A stretch of DNA of 39,269 nt from Candidatus Brocadiia bacterium (lineage in GTDB: Bacteria > Planctomycetota > DG-23 > SLPQ01), in NCBI GenBank assembly GCA_007131925.1, contig SLPQ01000120.1:1-39269 (forward strand), in the 5' to 3' direction. Shown here one piece after another: positions 31,376 to 38,659 of this stretch. Under the pieces are notes generated by a model, which had not been told where the DNA came from, did no database searches, and saw only the letters and a list, made by a program, of their open reading frames with translations. The position numbers and the translations under genes are program-made. The first letter of the stretch is position 1. Each line of letters begins with the position of its first letter.

Positions 31376-32749
31376 TTACGGTCGTGTCTCGCCCGCCGGC
31401 AGTATCTCGGGCTCTCTTTCTCCCGCTTCTATTATGCGGCGCATGAGTCTGCGACGAAGCCCGGCACGTACATCGGCAAGGGCCTCCTCGACGACGAGGT
31501 TTGTCCGCTCATGGGGGTCTGCATCGAGGTCGTAGAGAAACTCCTCGACGTAAAGGTCGCTTGCCGGATGGATCGCGCCGTCCTTGCCGGGCGCGCTTAC
31601 ACTGTACTTCCAGCGCTTTGTGCGAATGGCGCGGGCAACCTCGCTTTCACTGATCTGCACAAAGGCCTCCTCGGGCCAGTCAGCCGGCGCCCCGCCCGCA
31701 GTCTCCTGGAGGGGTCTGCCCTGCATGCTGACGGGGGCAGCGATGCCGCCGGCTCGCAGCAGCGTAGGCGGTACATCGATAAGGCTGACAATGTCGCTGA
31801 CGACTCTGCCGCCGGTAAAGCCCGGCCCGCACGCCACCATTGGGATGCGGATGCTGGCCTCGTGACATGAGCGCTTGTACTCGCTGTTTCGCGTGCGAAA
31901 GTGCGAGCCGTGATCACACGTGTAGATGATGAGCGTATCGTCGGCGATGCCGAACTCGCCAAGCGCCTGGCGCAGCCGGCCGAGGTTAAAGTCGAGGCTG
32001 TGGCAGCAGCCCAGGTAGTCAGGATAGTTTTCGCGCCAGTCGCCGCCGGTGCCGGCAAGGTCGCCCGGCACCTCGAAGTCCGCGAAGCGCTCCCTGCTGC
32101 CGGCCGGCCCTTCGTAACGGGAGCGGTCATTCTGGTGGTGCGGCTCTATAAACGAGAGAAAGAGAAAAAACGGCCGCTCGTCACTGCGGCCCTCCAGGTA
32201 CTCGATCGCCCAGTCACCAAGGCAGTCCGCGCGAAAGCGCCCCTCGGGAAAGTCGCGCCTGGCGCCGCTGCCGTCAAACATGTACCCGCCATAGCCGTGA
32301 GAGGTGAACTCAAGAACATCCGACGCCAGCCAGTAATCCCTGTAGCCTCCCCTTCTCTCAGGCGGAACGGGCGATGATTTGTAATCGGCGTCGAGCTCCC
32401 CGCCGAGCCCCTGAGTCGATGCGAGGTGCCATTTACCTATGTAGGCCACCTCGTAGCCTGCCTGTGAAAAGTGGTTGGCTATGGTCTTGTGGCGGGGATC
32501 GAGGGCGATGCCGTTTCGGAAATTGCCGGTCTGTGTGGCATATCGTCCCGTCTGGAGACATGCCCTTGCCGGTCCGCAGACGGGCTGACATGTGAAGGCG
32601 TTCTCAAACCGCACGCCCTCGACGGCCATACGGTCGAGATTGGGAGTGACGTTGAGCTTCTGGCCGTAGCAGCCGAGTGTGTCCCATCGCTGCTGGTCGG
32701 AGAAAAAGAAGATTATGTTCGGCCTGCTCGCGGAGGTCTTTTCTGCCAT
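31376..32749 (-). CDS. Type I (formylglycine) sulfatase, cytosolic form
   Basis: This 457-aa alkaline-phosphatase-superfamily enzyme probably removes sulfate from a sulfated sugar or ester. The metal-binding start NIIFFFSDQQRWDTLGCYG (residues 11-29) and the modification motif C58-G-P-A-R62, where Cys becomes formylglycine, are intact. GKWH, FIEPHH and TCDHG supply other active-site residues. The ATG at 32749 yields no signal peptide, whereas most bacterial sulfatases are exported, so this enzyme may act on imported substrates. It resembles choline-/N-sulfoglucosamine-sulfatase-like subfamilies by the SDQQRWDTLGCYG opening. No sulfatase-maturing enzyme is present in the window. Confidence 0.9.
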   Translation of the reverse strand: MAEKTSASRPNIIFFFSDQQRWDTLGCYGQKLNVTPNLDRMAVEGVRFENAFTCQPVCGPARACLQTGRYATQTGNFRNGIALDPRHKTIANHFSQAGYEVAYIGKWHLASTQGLGGELDADYKSSPVPPERRGGYRDYWLASDVLEFTSHGYGGYMFDGSGARRDFPEGRFRADCLGDWAIEYLEGRSDERPFFLFLSFIEPHHQNDRSRYEGPAGSRERFADFEVPGDLAGTGGDWRENYPDYLGCCHSLDFNLGRLRQALGEFGIADDTLIIYTCDHGSHFRTRNSEYKRSCHEASIRIPMVACGPGFTGGRVVSDIVSLIDVPPTLLRAGGIAAPVSMQGRPLQETAGGAPADWPEEAFVQISESEVARAIRTKRWKYSVSAPGKDGAIHPASDLYVEEFLYDLDADPHERTNLVVEEALADVRAGLRRRLMRRIIEAGEREPEILPAGETRP

Positions 32750-32797
32750 TTCCTGCGCCCTTTCTGTGCATGGGCGATCGTGGCTACTGCCCTGAGG

Positions 32798-32827
32798 ATA
32801 ATCGCTGAGCGCCGGGAAGCCAGTCAA
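32798..32827 (-). promoter_or_regulatory. Possible promoter of the sulfatase gene
   Basis: On the minus strand TTGACT (32822-32827), an 18-nt spacer and GATTAT (32798-32803) lie 48 nt before the sulfatase ATG. Confidence 0.3.
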
Positions 32828-32942
32828 TTTCACATCCGCCGCTGCCGAAAATGCGTTGAGACCACTCTCCAGGACCGGCGCTGCCTGGCGTGAGTGCGCG
32901 CTTGCGGCGCATTTTTGCCTGCTGGAAAGGTACCAGAGCGCC

Positions 32943-35924
32943 TCACTTAGCTACGAGGCGATCGATAAAGCCCGCCTCCACCGTGCATGCGCCGTGCCTG
33001 CTCTCGACCCGGCCCTTGATGATAAAGGGTCCGGCCGAGTTGAAAAGCCTGCCGTAGCGCCTGTAGCTTTCGGGAAAGAGCGTCGCCTCGAAGATGTCCG
33101 TCTCGTCCTCGAACGTTGCAAACTCCATCACGCGCCCGTCCCTTGTAGGCGCGCGCCTCCTCGTGACGAGAAATCCCGCCAACGTGATATACCGGCCGGC
33201 AAGCGCGACTAGCTCTCTTGCCGGCGATGCGCCACGATCGCGCGCTTTGTCTCTGAAAGGGATCATCGGATGCGCAGTCGGCGTCATCTCCATCGTGTCG
33301 TCTTCGCAGGCGATGGCCTCCCTCAGGGAATACTCTGATATGCGGACATTTGCGGCACCTCGAAGCGCGGCGGCTGCGCCGTTTGAAAATGCGTCCAATT
33401 GCAGAAGCGCCTCCGGGCGTGTGCATCCAAGGCCACAGAAAGCCCCCGCCCTCACAAGCGCCTCGACCTCACGGGGAGGCGCATCGATGCGTTCGAAAAA
33501 GTCGGCCGTACTGGTGAAGGCTCGCTCGGCGCGCCGGTCGAGGATCTTCAAAACCGTCTTTCGGGACAGGCCCTTTACGGCCATGAAGCCGATGCGGATG
33601 GAGTGCGGCCCTGTGAGAAACCCTTCGGCGCTTGAGTTTATATCGAGCGGCAGGATTTCCACGCCGAGCCGGCGCGCCTCCTCGAGGTAGACGCGCGGAT
33701 GGTAAAAGCCTGCCATATTTGAGATGCGCGCAGCGAGAAACTGGGCTGGGTAGTGGCTCTTGAGCCACATGGTGGCCCAGGAAATTTGCGCGTAGGTCGT
33801 TGCATGCGCCTTGCAGTAGGAATATGCGGCGAAGTTTCGCACCATCTCCCATATGGCAAGCGCCGCCTCCTGCCGCATGCCGCGCTCGGCTGCCCCTGCA
33901 ATAAAGCGGCTCTTGAGCGCCGCTATAGCCTCGCTACTTCTGCCCTTTGAGATGGCCTTTCGCAGCTCGTCGCCGACGGCCAGGTCAAAGCCCGCGACCG
34001 CCCTGGCAACCTTCAATATATCCTCCTGATACAGCATTACGCCATATGTGTCTCGCAGGCTTTCCTCCATCGACGGGTGCAGATAAAAGGGCTTTTCGAG
34101 GCCGAGGCGACGCCTCAAGTAGTGCTCCTTCATCCCGGAGCCGGCAGGACCCGGGCGGATGAGGGAAAGGCCGATCTGAAGGTCGTCTCTGTCTCGCGCA
34201 CGCATCATCTGCAGGAGGTTTCTCATGCCGGGCGACTCCACCTGAAAGCCGCCGATAGTGCGCCCGCGCCGGATGAGCCGCGCCGTTCTGGCGTCGCTGC
34301 CGTCTAAGCGATAGGGGTCGATTTTCTTTTTGAAGACCCTTTCCACATCTTCGACCGTCTCGTTTACGACAGTGAGCGCCCGCTGGCCGAGAAGGTCCAT
34401 CTTCACAAGCCCCAGCTCCTCGACCGGCCCCATGTCGTACTGGCTTACGACTATACCCTTGGACGCTCTCTCCAGCGGCAGGTAGGACGTCAGCGGCTCG
34501 TCTGAGATCACCAGCCCCCCCAGGTGCACGCCGGTGTGGCGCGGATAGCCGGTAATTCCAGAGGCGATCTCGACGATCGTGCGATACGGCTCGATATCGA
34601 GGAGAAAATCCGCCGCCTCGGGTGCGCTTCTTGCGGCGGCGGCTATGTTTTCGCCACCGTGAAAGGGCAGGGTCTTTGAGAGTGAGTTTATCTCTGCTGC
34701 AGGCAGGCCGAAGACGCGCGCCACGTCGCGAAAGGCGCTCTTGGCCTGGTAGGTCACGTGCGTGGAGATCATGGCGACGTTTGCCTGTCCGTACCTTTTG
34801 TAAACGTAGTCGATCAGCTCATCGCGACGACGCCAGCAGATGTCGAGGTCGATATCGGGGCAGTCCGTGCGGGAGAGGTTCAGAAACCTCTCGAAATAGA
34901 GATCATGCGCGATGGGGTCCACGATGGTTATACCGAGACAATATGCTACGAGGCTGTCTGCGGCAGAGCCCCGACCCGCCACGGTGATGCCCTCTGCCCG
35001 CGCGTGTCGCACGATCTGCTCTACGATGAGAAAGTACTCCGGGAAGTTGAGCTTTTCTATGACCTCCAGCTCATATGCAAGACGCTTCATCACCGCCGGC
35101 GTGAGCGGCCGGTAGCGGCGTGCCGCCCCTTTGAAGGCCAGCTTCGAAAGCCACGAAAAGGGCGTCTCCCCCTCCGGCACGTCCGCATGCGGAAAGTGAT
35201 ACCTGCCGAAGGTAAAATCAAAAGTGCATGCCTCGGCGATTTCAAGCGTATTCGAGAGAGCCTCCGGCACGAGCCTGAATATCCGCTCCATCTCGGCGGG
35301 TGTCCTGAAATACGCATCGGCCGGCGCGAAGGCGGCTGCGGGGAGGTTTTCCAGAAGGGCGTTTTCGCGGATTGCCGAGAGCACCTTGTGGATGCGATGG
35401 CGCTGCTGCCCCGCAAAGTGCGCAGCCGGAGTCGCCACAAGGGGCAGGCCCAGCTCGCGCGCCGTCTTGAAAATGCCGCGCAGGACCCTTCTGCCCGAAG
35501 ATGCCGGCAGCTCCGCGTAAAGCCCCTCAAGCCGCCCGGCGGCTCCCTTGAGAAATCCCTCGTCGGCCGAGAGTATGACAAGCCCGTCTGCATACTTGCG
35601 GGCCGCCTCCAAAAGGGAAAAGCCTTCGTCGAGCCTGCGCGCGCTGACAAGCCGGCAGAGGTTGCGATATCCGGTCTCGTCTCTGGCGAGAAAGACCGCC
35701 TCCTCCCCCCCCGCCTCCACTGCAGCGCCTGTGATGGGCTTGAGCCCCGCTGCGCGGGCAGCCTTGTAAAAGGGCACCGCGCCGTAGAGTGCGTTTGTGT
35801 CGGTGATCGCCAGCGCCTTTATCCCCATCCGCGAGGCGGCCTCCACATACTCCTCGATCGTGGAAGCGCCGTCCAGGAGGCTCCAGCTACTGTGTAAGTG
35901 AAGGGGTGCGTAGGATGAAGCCAT
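32943..35924 (-). CDS. dnaE2: DNA polymerase III alpha-type error-prone polymerase (DnaE2/ImuC-like)
   Basis: This 993-aa C-family polymerase is shorter than replicative DnaE (about 1160 aa). The PHP domain opens with PLHLHSSWSLLDG (residues 8-19). The palm has catalytic D359 and D361 in CPDIDLDICWRRRDELI and D510 in GLVKMDLLGQRALT. HTGVHLGGLVI, IRPGPAGSG and YSYCKAHATTYAQISW follow, then helix-hairpin-helix (KGLSRKTVLKIL) and a C-terminal OB fold (ITLAGFLVTRRRAPTRDG to RVESRHG). No tau-binding tail is present. The size and the place directly after dinB and lexA fit DnaE2, which carries out translesion synthesis. It starts within dinB with a 38-nt overlap and a poor ribosome site, so it is probably translationally coupled. 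Confidence 0.88.
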   Translation of the reverse strand: MASSYAPLHLHSSWSLLDGASTIEEYVEAASRMGIKALAITDTNALYGAVPFYKAARAAGLKPITGAAVEAGGEEAVFLARDETGYRNLCRLVSARRLDEGFSLLEAARKYADGLVILSADEGFLKGAAGRLEGLYAELPASSGRRVLRGIFKTARELGLPLVATPAAHFAGQQRHRIHKVLSAIRENALLENLPAAAFAPADAYFRTPAEMERIFRLVPEALSNTLEIAEACTFDFTFGRYHFPHADVPEGETPFSWLSKLAFKGAARRYRPLTPAVMKRLAYELEVIEKLNFPEYFLIVEQIVRHARAEGITVAGRGSAADSLVAYCLGITIVDPIAHDLYFERFLNLSRTDCPDIDLDICWRRRDELIDYVYKRYGQANVAMISTHVTYQAKSAFRDVARVFGLPAAEINSLSKTLPFHGGENIAAAARSAPEAADFLLDIEPYRTIVEIASGITGYPRHTGVHLGGLVISDEPLTSYLPLERASKGIVVSQYDMGPVEELGLVKMDLLGQRALTVVNETVEDVERVFKKKIDPYRLDGSDARTARLIRRGRTIGGFQVESPGMRNLLQMMRARDRDDLQIGLSLIRPGPAGSGMKEHYLRRRLGLEKPFYLHPSMEESLRDTYGVMLYQEDILKVARAVAGFDLAVGDELRKAISKGRSSEAIAALKSRFIAGAAERGMRQEAALAIWEMVRNFAAYSYCKAHATTYAQISWATMWLKSHYPAQFLAARISNMAGFYHPRVYLEEARRLGVEILPLDINSSAEGFLTGPHSIRIGFMAVKGLSRKTVLKILDRRAERAFTSTADFFERIDAPPREVEALVRAGAFCGLGCTRPEALLQLDAFSNGAAAALRGAANVRISEYSLREAIACEDDTMEMTPTAHPMIPFRDKARDRGASPARELVALAGRYITLAGFLVTRRRAPTRDGRVMEFATFEDETDIFEATLFPESYRRYGRLFNSAGPFIIKGRVESRHGACTVEAGFIDRLVAK

Positions 35925-37107
35925 GGCTGTCGGTCTCGAGGTGTCGGATGAGTTCTATGGCTCTGCCGGTCAAAATGGATGAAAAGCCGAACCGCTCCCT
36001 CACACTGTCGATGCCCCTGTAGAGCCGCTCTCGCCTCTGAAAGCCGCTCTCGTCAAAGAGCGTGGCCTGGTGCGGCATGCCTGGGGCGAGGCTCGAAAGG
36101 GCTACGCCGACGTTTCTGATGCGCATGCGGCGGGTGAAGAGCTCATCAAAGAGCACCAGAGCCAGGCCCTTGAAGTCACAGTCGTGCGTCGAGGGCTCCC
36201 TGAGCGAGCGCGCCTTGTGGCAGGTGGAAAAGTCGCTGTAGCGCAGCTTGACTGTCACGGTACGGGCGCTCATTCCGATCGAGCGCAGCTTGCCGGCGGC
36301 TCGCTCTGTAAGGTAGGAAAGCATGGCCTCGACAAGGCCGCGCTCGGCGGTGTCTTCATGAAAGGTGGTCTCGCGGCTTATCGACTTCGGATACGCGGCC
36401 TCCTCCACCTCGCTGAAATCCCGCCCCGATGCCCTCTCGGCAAGCGCCTGCCCTGAGGGCCCGAGCGCAGCAGCGAGCACCGCCTCCGATATCACCTGCA
36501 GGTCACCGATTGTCTTGAAATTGTAACGCCCGAGCCGCTCAAAGGTCCTCGGCCCCACGCCCGGCAGGTCGCGTAGACCAAGGGGCTTCAAAAACGCCGC
36601 CTCGAACCCCGGCATCACGCAGGTGATGGCATTCGGCTTGGCATAGTCGGAGGCCACCTTGGCCACCAGCCTCGAGGAGGCCACCCCCACCGAGACGTTA
36701 AGGCCTGTAGCATCCTTGACCGCCCGCTTTATACTGTCGGCAGCGTCAAAAGGGTGCCCGTAAATGCGCTTGCAGCCGGTAAGGTCGAGATACGCCTCGT
36801 CAAGGGAGGCCATCTCGATGTCAGGCGTGAATGAGTAAAAGACCCCCCGCATCCTATCCGACATTTTGCGGTAATTTTCGAACTTGCCCCTTAGAAAGAC
36901 CGCCTGCGGACAGAGCCGCCGAGCCTCGGCAAGGGGCATGGCGGTCTTTACCCCGTAAGCCTTTGCCTCGTAGCTGGCCGAGGCCACGACGCTGCGGTCG
37001 TCAGGGTCGCCGCCGACGATTACCGGCTTGCCGGCAAGCTCCGGGCAGAGCACCTGCTCGACCGACGCGAAAAAGGCATCCGCGTCCACATGCAGTATCC
37101 AGCGCAC
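35887..37107 (-). CDS. dinB: Y-family DNA polymerase IV (DinB)
   Basis: This 406-aa translesion polymerase aligns with E. coli Pol IV without gaps at the active site: D8 in HVDADAFFASVEQ, F13 as steric gate, and D103-E104 in SLDEAYLD. The thumb helix-hairpin-helix LRDLPGVGPRTFERLGRYN and little-finger domain follow. A clamp-binding motif QATLFD (from residue 347) is followed by about 54 extra residues containing RERFGFSSILTG, common in many DinB relatives. The catalytic residues are intact, unlike ImuB. The start GTG at 37107 is chosen for this alignment; an upstream GTG at 37152 would add an Arg-rich extension. It lies about 100 nt after lexA with no promoter seen. Confidence 0.92.
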   Translation of the reverse strand: MRWILHVDADAFFASVEQVLCPELAGKPVIVGGDPDDRSVVASASYEAKAYGVKTAMPLAEARRLCPQAVFLRGKFENYRKMSDRMRGVFYSFTPDIEMASLDEAYLDLTGCKRIYGHPFDAADSIKRAVKDATGLNVSVGVASSRLVAKVASDYAKPNAITCVMPGFEAAFLKPLGLRDLPGVGPRTFERLGRYNFKTIGDLQVISEAVLAAALGPSGQALAERASGRDFSEVEEAAYPKSISRETTFHEDTAERGLVEAMLSYLTERAAGKLRSIGMSARTVTVKLRYSDFSTCHKARSLREPSTHDCDFKGLALVLFDELFTRRMRIRNVGVALSSLAPGMPHQATLFDESGFQRRERLYRGIDSVRERFGFSSILTGRAIELIRHLETDSHGFILRTPSLTQ

Positions 37108-37208
37108 TCCGTCGCCGCGCTCCCTCTTTCGATGTGTGTGACGGGCAGGCACCTTTGCACCCTTTCGTCATTTCAATGTCGCCTCAAGGGCTCCCCCCTC
37201 GGGGCGGC

Positions 37209-37790
37209 TCAATACTTTCTCACGATCCCGATAACCACCCCCTGCACCTTGACGTCCTTTGCGTATATGGGCTTCATGTCGGGGTTGGCGGGCTGAAGCC
37301 TTATGCGGCGCTTTTCGCGGTAAAACTTTTTCAGTGTCGCCTCGCCGTTTTCAAGAAGCGCCACGACTGTCTGGCCGTTTTCGGCACTGTCGCGCCTCTC
37401 CACTATGACATAGTCGCCGTCCCGGATGTGCTCGTCTATCATGGAGTTTCCTCGAACCTTGAGGACAAAAGACTCCCTGTCTGAGGAGAGCATCTCGGAA
37501 ATGTCGATCTCGTCGCCAAGCGGCGCCGCCTCGATGGGCGCGCCCGCGGCTATGTAGCCGAAAAAGGGGATCGCCGAGGCCGTGCCTTCCAGGACCTTAA
37601 GCGAGCGCGCCTGGTAGCGCCGCCACGTAACCACCCCCCGCGCACGCAGGCGCTGGAGATGCTCGTAAACAGTCTTTTTGTTCAGCCGCAGCGCCTCGGC
37701 CATCTCGTCCATAGTCGGCGGCACGCCCCTCGCGCGACGATAATCCAGGATAAAGTCCACGACGTCCTTCTGCCTGCGGGTAATCTCCAT
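37209..37790 (-). CDS. lexA: SOS repressor LexA
   Basis: This 193-aa repressor cleaves itself when RecA filaments form. The N-terminal winged helix (residues 4-60) has a recognition segment LRLNKKTVYEHLQRLRARG that differs from the E. coli type, implying another operator sequence. The cleavage site is A82-G83 in IAAGAP, with nucleophile S116 in GNSM and K154 in ATLKKF; DGDYVIV is also conserved. The start at 37790 is set by GGAGG 8 nt upstream and by family length; the open frame continuing upstream has no LexA-like sequence. It leads the dinB-dnaE2 operon and most likely represses itself and both polymerases. Confidence 0.94.
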   Translation of the reverse strand: MEITRRQKDVVDFILDYRRARGVPPTMDEMAEALRLNKKTVYEHLQRLRARGVVTWRRYQARSLKVLEGTASAIPFFGYIAAGAPIEAAPLGDEIDISEMLSSDRESFVLKVRGNSMIDEHIRDGDYVIVERRDSAENGQTVVALLENGEATLKKFYREKRRIRLQPANPDMKPIYAKDVKVQGVVIGIVRKY

Positions 37791-37828: not shown

Positions 37829-37858
37829 ATTGTACCCAACAATAACCCAACATTACAA
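37829..37858 (-). promoter_or_regulatory. Promoter of the lexA-dinB-dnaE2 operon
   Basis: On the minus strand TTGTAA (37853-37858), an 18-nt spacer and TACAAT (37829-37834) lie about 38 nt before the lexA ATG, in an AT-rich patch. The spacer is filled by a direct repeat (see the operator entry). Confidence 0.6.
37834..37852 (-). promoter_or_regulatory. Candidate LexA operator (direct repeat with 11-bp period)
   Basis: On the minus strand TGTTGGGT occurs twice, with starts 11 bp apart (GTTG-N7-GTTG), exactly between the -35 and -10 boxes of lexA. The spacing equals that of the alphaproteobacterial LexA box GTTC-N7-GTTC. LexA normally represses itself, so this is a plausible operator; no other copy was confirmed. 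Confidence 0.4.
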
Positions 37859-38319: not shown

Positions 38320-38547
38320 TCAGACGGCGACGACTTCCTTCAGCTCGGGGTAGGCCTCCTTGAGCTTTCTCTGAACACCCATCTGCAGCGTCATCTGCGC
38401 CATGGGGCAGTGGCCGCAGGCGCCCTTGAGGCGCACCTTCACAATGCCCTCTTCCGCCTCGACGTCCACCAGCTCTATATCGCCGCCGTCTGCCTGAAGC
38501 ATCGGCCTGATCTCTTCTATTACAGCCTGAACTCCATCCTTGTCCAT
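38320..38547 (-). CDS. Minimal Nfu-type Fe-S cluster scaffold/carrier protein
   Basis: This 75-aa protein consists only of the NifU C-terminal (Nfu) domain. It carries IRPMLQADGGDIELVDVE and the cluster-binding GACGHCPMAQMTL (C44, C47). Two monomers would share one [4Fe-4S] cluster and hand it to target enzymes. The start at 38547 is supported by AAGGGG 6 nt upstream and the family start. The gene has its own promoter (38605-38632) and terminator, so it is a single-gene unit. Fe-S clients in this window include DinG and possibly the two PP-loop enzymes. Confidence 0.93.
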   Translation of the reverse strand: MDKDGVQAVIEEIRPMLQADGGDIELVDVEAEEGIVKVRLKGACGHCPMAQMTLQMGVQRKLKEAYPELKEVVAV

Positions 38548-38604
38548 TACAGTCCCCTTACAGTTGTGATCATGTCGCCGGGACAAGCGCCCCGACCACA
38601 CATA

Positions 38605-38632
38605 ATTGTACACATAGCTCTCAAGAGGACAA
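38605..38632 (-). promoter_or_regulatory. Predicted promoter of nfu
   Basis: On the minus strand TTGTCC (38627-38632), a 16-nt spacer and TACAAT (38605-38610) lie about 58 nt before the nfu ATG. Confidence 0.5.
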
Positions 38633-38659
38633 GCCCCCGGCACTGCGCCTCCGGCAGGC

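Follow-up and report, generated by a model that had tools for sequence, protein, structure and literature searches.

Variants of the DnaE2 mutasome that lack ImuA and pair DnaE2 with an active or inactive Y-family polymerase (PolY), often together with lexA and a motif resembling the N-terminus of RecA (RecA-NT-like), were described in 2019, including a Bacteroidetes example in which two apparently active polymerases are paired (PMC6511836). Modules of this kind were named DnaE2B-PolY-RecA, DnaE2B-iPolY-RecA, and DnaE2B-[ImuB-C]-PolY-RecA in 2026, with support from AlphaFold, and the last of these was stated to be confined to Actinobacteria (PMC12926913). In Bacteroidetes, dinB-dnaE operons are found under non-canonical LexA motifs (PMC8565304). 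Because of these three studies, the class of module that we examine here is already known. Our subject is a lexA-polY-dnaE2 operon on a 39,269-nucleotide stretch of DNA (hereafter, the window), which is the entire contig C22 of a Candidatus Brocadiia (Planctomycetota) genome of 3.03 Mb in 257 contigs with an estimated completeness of 91%. We read it as probably a mutagenesis operon of DnaE2B-PolY-RecA type under LexA control, in which PolY serves as both polymerase and hub. What is new here are the lineages, the minimal lexA-headed form, the apparent single partner clade, a conserved C-terminal peptide, and a candidate operator.

Phylogenetic placement of the two polymerases

On the minus strand of the window, lexA, a Y-family polymerase gene, and dnaE2 follow one another in the same direction; the open reading frames and their coordinates confirm this arrangement and the overlap of the last two genes, both of which had been described in a first-pass annotation. 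The same annotation took the middle gene for an ordinary DinB in ImuB's place within an ImuA-ImuB-DnaE2 cassette, a reading that fits the presence of lexA and dnaE2 and the absence of ImuA and ImuB but is contradicted by the trees of both polymerases, such that we consider it very improbable. In the C-family tree (64 proteins; support from the Shimodaira-Hasegawa-like approximate likelihood ratio test, SH-aLRT), the window DnaE2 falls in a clade apart from DnaE1 (100%) that includes PolY-DnaE pairs from Bacteroidota plasmids, many proteins of planctomycetes, Hydrogenedentota, and Calditrichota, and a protein from a Desulfosarcina plasmid. The DnaE2s linked to ImuA/ImuB form the sister clade (100%), and within the same phylum, ImuB-linked cassettes are separate loci, each with its own DnaE2. 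By this placement, the window DnaE2 belongs to a DnaE2B-like clade, DnaE2B being represented in the tree by the Bacteroidota plasmid pairs only. The genome's one other C-family gene, a 1190-residue open frame on contig C28, clusters with relatives' replicative DnaE1, and the window protein stays apart from these; the clustering with replicative DnaE that the first-pass annotation had named as a refutation is thus not seen.

The Y-family tree (83 proteins, tail columns excluded; SH-aLRT support) places all sampled DnaE2B-partner PolYs, including those of the Bacteroidota plasmid pairs and the window PolY, in one clade (99%). Outside this clade lie all 21 PolYs whose genomes have no detected DnaE2B, as well as E. 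coli DinB, the general PolYs of the phylum, and the second PolYs of genomes that have two. Because of this placement, we take the window "DinB" to represent a dedicated partner lineage rather than an ordinary Pol IV replacing ImuB, and the tree suggests that the partner of DnaE2B is a single dedicated Y-family lineage.

Both polymerases are apparently active, as had been proposed. The window PolY contains Pfam IMS and IMS_C domains and retains its catalytic residues, which are D23/D118/E119 when counted from the GTG at 37152 and D8/D103/E104, the numbering given earlier, if translation starts at the internal GTG ("VRWILHVD"). DnaE2 contains the Pfam DNA_pol3_alpha, finger, and PHP domains along with an OB-fold region, and its catalytic aspartates (D357, D359, and D510) lie in invariant alignment columns. 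The absence of ImuA and ImuB extends to the rest of the 91%-complete genome: an ImuA profile, which recovers the true ImuAs of four control genomes (G019, G022, G025, and G049) at E<1e-65, matches only RecA and a KaiC-like protein, and no ImuB is found, the sole Y-family (IMS-domain) protein being the one with the intact active site. A profile of ImuB-C likewise has no match in the genome or the window.

Two further arrangements were seen among the loci compared. Locus L149 (1703-6409; G049:C1, about 42200-46900) holds one 1568-residue frame with ImuB-like and DnaE2 domains and imuA upstream, an apparent natural ImuB-DnaE2 fusion. PolY-dnaE2 cassettes also occur on plasmids of Desulfosarcina ovata (L109), whose PolY has lost its catalytic residues, and of Bacteroidota (L154-L156), which suggests that these cassettes are mobile.

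A two-part tail on the window PolY

Beyond the polymerase core, the window PolY carries a β-clamp-type motif, QATLFD, whose glutamine (Q362) is invariant across 15 aligned relatives and after which exactly 54 residues remain. The first-pass annotation was right about the motif and the tail of about this length, but it missed that the tail contains a RecA-NT-like motif, after which comes a conserved C-terminal peptide. In a profile-profile comparison, the family profile of the post-clamp stretch matches the RecA N-terminal oligomerization motif with a probability of 81% and an E-value of 1.2e-5. An AlphaFold2 model of the protein (mean predicted local distance difference test score of 82.6, with a confident Y-family core) renders residues 368-388 of this region as a separate helix. 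From this motif, binding to RecA is predicted.

The peptide directly follows the RecA-NT-like motif and has the pattern G-[FY]-x-L-[RH]-T-P-S-L-[ST]-x, with a consensus of GYxLRTPSLT plus one residue (hereafter, the TPSL peptide). In a sample of 392 planctomycete genomes, a profile running through the C-terminal end identifies 52 PolYs with the peptide and, among those listed, 77 without it. All but one of the 52 (the exception being in G045) come from genomes that also have a second, DnaE2-like gene: for 37, the genome has a top-listed DnaE2B, and a further search added 14 of the remaining 15, these assignments being based on profile score and a second match beside DnaE1, not on a tree. The peptide is absent from all 20 tailless PolYs that were inspected in genomes where no DnaE2B was detected. 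In each of four two-PolY genomes (G072, G074, G076, and G079), only the dnaE2-adjacent PolY carries it, and in two of these (G072 and G076), the PolY without the peptide sits in a lexA-imuB-C-polY set, while the separate dnaE2-adjacent PolY with the peptide has no ImuB-C nearby. Because of this distribution, the peptide appears to go with DnaE2 rather than with ImuB-C.

Two other explanations of the peptide were set aside. The distribution in G072 and G076 disfavours a role as a ligand of ImuB-C, and an artefact of the dinB/dnaE2 overlap is rejected, as the peptide is conserved even in cases without an overlap and in cases of separated genes.

The main texts of PMC6511836 and PMC12926913, supplements aside, were not found to mention the TPSL peptide, and it is apparently previously undescribed. 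It may be a docking element for DnaE2. A fuller proposal, which we put forward tentatively and hold to be somewhat short of an even chance, is that the peptide occupies the position that ImuB-C has in ImuB and docks DnaE2B, such that in Planctomycetota, Calditrichota/KSB1, and Hydrogenedentota, an active PolY would need none of ImuA, ImuB, and ImuB-C to hold an active C-family polymerase.

The cassette in related genomes

The only same-family genome with the cassette is G001, also called a sister genus. There, one contig carries lexA (74% identical) followed by an acetyltransferase-like gene and breaks off within dinB (68%); dnaE2 (67%) is at the end of a second contig. The acetyltransferase-like gene between lexA and dinB spans 1500-2410 of L082 (G001:C148).

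More widely, a search for conserved gene order, which the first-pass annotation had called for, finds that lexA-(small gene)-polY-dnaE2 recurs in ten or more further genomes of the phylum, which makes the order more than a coincidence. These include G346, G376, G336, G210, G155, and six genomes of family f55, as well as G057, in which PolY is inactive. In the first five, the small gene encodes a standalone ImuB-C-like protein (matching Pfam DUF6504 below threshold only), and in several f55 genomes, it encodes an S24-like, UmuD-like protein with weak Pfam matches only. One f55 genome (G240) has lexA-polY-dnaE2 with no gene between, and in G023, the cassette is split into lexA-dnaE2 and lexA-imuB-C-polY, each half headed by lexA. 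The window has the minimal form, consisting of lexA, polY, and dnaE2. Among the individual loci, lexA-imuB-C-polY-dnaE2 sets of Planctomycetota, of a module type given as restricted to Actinobacteria in PMC12926913, are seen in L190-L197, L091, L171, L175, and L185, and the f55 S24-like gene between lexA and polY is seen in L202 (5296-5646), L204 (5484-5867), L205 (2645-3076), and L208 (2061-2417).

The existence of lexA-imuB-C-polY-dnaE2 in phylum relatives raises the question of whether the window holds a DnaE2B-[ImuB-C]-PolY-RecA module that has recently lost its small ImuB-C subunit and persists as a partly working remnant. No ImuB-C is found in G000 or G001, and the slot in G001 is filled by the unrelated acetyltransferase-like gene, as such a loss would have it. 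We nonetheless judge a remnant to be quite improbable, given that the catalytic and tail motifs are intact and that other lineages (Hydrogenedentota L006/L013/L038, L027, L036, and G033) keep the tail and DnaE2 with no ImuB-C detected. Because of these lineages, the two-gene form looks stable.

Organization and regulation of the locus

The features of the locus are collected in Table 1. LexA scores 177.8 bits against TIGR00498 (cutoff of 111) and has both the DNA-binding domain and the S24 peptidase. Counted from its GTG at 37152, dinB is separated from lexA by 56 nt. The neighbouring genes, named from sequence alone, are apparently unrelated to the cassette: an arylsulfatase-like gene (31376-32833) lies downstream and a NifU-like gene (38320-38643) upstream.

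Table 1. Features of the lexA-polY-dnaE2 locus (positions in the window)
Feature	Position	Strand	Description and basis
lexA	37209..37790	(-)	193 aa; Ala-Gly cleavage site, S24 serine and lysine (TIGR00498, Pfam, alignment)
dinB-like Y-family polymerase	35887..37152	(-)	421 aa; GTG 37152, alternative start GTG 37107; catalytic D/D/E intact
dnaE2 (DnaE2B-like)	32943..35924	(-)	993 aa; Pfam domains and C-family tree
dinB/dnaE2 overlap	35887..35924	(-)	38 nt; dinB ends at 35887, dnaE2 starts at 35924
β-clamp-type motif QATLFD	36052..36069	(-)	Residues 362-367 of the DinB-like PolY; from sequence
RecA-NT-like motif region	35970..36051	(-)	About residues 368-394; profile-profile match, model helix
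Conserved C-terminal peptide DSHGFILRTPSLTQ + stop	35887..35931	(-)	Conservation among relatives
lexA promoter-like site TTGTAA-N18-TACAAT	37829..37858	(-)	Consensus scan, 9/12
Candidate LexA operator, direct repeat TGTTGGGT-N3-TGTTGGGT	37834..37852	(-)	11-bp period, within promoter spacer

From 37858 to dnaE2, the minus strand has a single sigma-70-like site, located ahead of lexA. This agrees with the earlier remark that dinB has no visible promoter, and the separate dnaE2 promoter that was named there as a refutation is not seen. G001 has TTGATA-N18-TATACT at the equivalent position. Within the spacer of the window site, the direct repeat TGTTGGGT-N3-TGTTGGGT is a good candidate for the LexA operator. 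It is the only exact copy in the genome, with matches at three mismatches occurring at control level, and it is conserved in G001 inside an otherwise diverged lexA upstream region. In G057, which belongs to another family, the lexA promoter contains a palindrome, ACCCAACA-TT-TGTTGGGT (L087, 12420-12437), that has a half-site in common with the window repeat. When the single upstream region is shuffled, an 8-bp direct repeat arises in 66 of 2000 shuffles (3.3%).

Proposed mechanism

In the mechanism that we propose, DNA damage would activate RecA, upon which LexA would cleave itself and lexA, the DinB-like PolY, and DnaE2 would be made from one transcript. PolY would then act as polymerase and hub, with QATLFD binding the β clamp, the RecA-NT-like helix binding RecA in ImuA's place, and the TPSL peptide together with the thumb domain holding DnaE2 in the place of ImuB-C. 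At the lesion, PolY might insert and DnaE2 extend, or the reverse.

Damage-induced polymerases are able to act singly, and with both active sites intact, LexA might only switch on, from a single operon, two translesion polymerases that work independently and form no physical complex. We regard co-regulation of this sort as unlikely: several relatives do have the tailed PolY and dnaE2 kilobases away from each other or on separate contigs, but the shared clade, the recurrent adjacency and overlap, the RecA-NT-like motif, and the conserved peptide on the partner PolY argue for more, as does the AlphaFold support reported for DnaE2-PolY-RecA modules (PMC12926913).

Several observations weigh against a DnaE2B-PolY-RecA operon organized around the PolY tail. 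When the window tail alone is scored against a RecA N-terminal hidden Markov model, it reaches -1.3 bits, under the best shuffles (5.2 bits), and because of this, we use the profile-profile result alone for the RecA-NT-like motif. The Y-family tree has only about four changes in the state of the peptide, and an independent-pairs test is powerless; because inheritance within one clade accounts for most occurrences of the peptide, its link to DnaE2 is suggestive, not proven. Furthermore, six DnaE2-adjacent PolYs of family f55 and four of Bacteroidota lack the peptide, as do a few further DnaE2 partners. The recA gene, which lies behind an upstream gene in both the window genome and G001, has no copy of the candidate operator. 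Finally, because many relatives have a standalone ImuB-C that is absent from the window genome, the minimal form may have arisen by reduction.

Comparison with known systems

If the DnaE2B-PolY-RecA reading of the window holds, two-active-polymerase mutasomes are extended to Planctomycetota, Calditrichota/KSB1, and Hydrogenedentota. The short, removable peptide would offer a way into error-prone DnaE2 recruitment without ImuA or ImuB, and the minimal lexA-polY-dnaE2 form would be a simple system for learning what ImuB-C and ImuA add.

The DnaE2B-PolY-RecA module of Bacteroidota (Cellulophaga algicola type; PMC6511836, PMC12926913; plasmid loci L154-L157) has in common with the window an active PolY adjoining DnaE2, the RecA-NT-like motif, the absence of ImuA, ImuB, and ImuB-C beside the genes, and the same DnaE2 and PolY clades. 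The window differs in having a canonical-type LexA as the first gene of the operon, whereas the Bacteroidota repressors are non-canonical (PMC8565304) and divergent in L154, and in having the TPSL peptide, which the Bacteroidota PolYs lack. With the DnaE2B-[ImuB-C]-PolY-RecA module (Tessaracoccus type), the window shares an active PolY and a DnaE2B-like polymerase; the exact set of that module, headed by lexA, occurs in many relatives within the phylum, whereas the window genome is without ImuB-C. The ImuA-ImuB-DnaE2 mutasome resembles the window in its link to LexA, its combination of a Y-family protein with DnaE2, and the clamp motif on the Y-family partner, but in the window, there is no ImuA, the catalytic residues are intact, the ImuB-C domain is missing, and DnaE2 belongs to a different clade. 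Finally, the lexA-imuB-C-polY operon of Geobacter is likewise headed by lexA and contains an active PolY, with the difference that it has ImuB-C and no DnaE2, whereas the window has DnaE2 and no ImuB-C.

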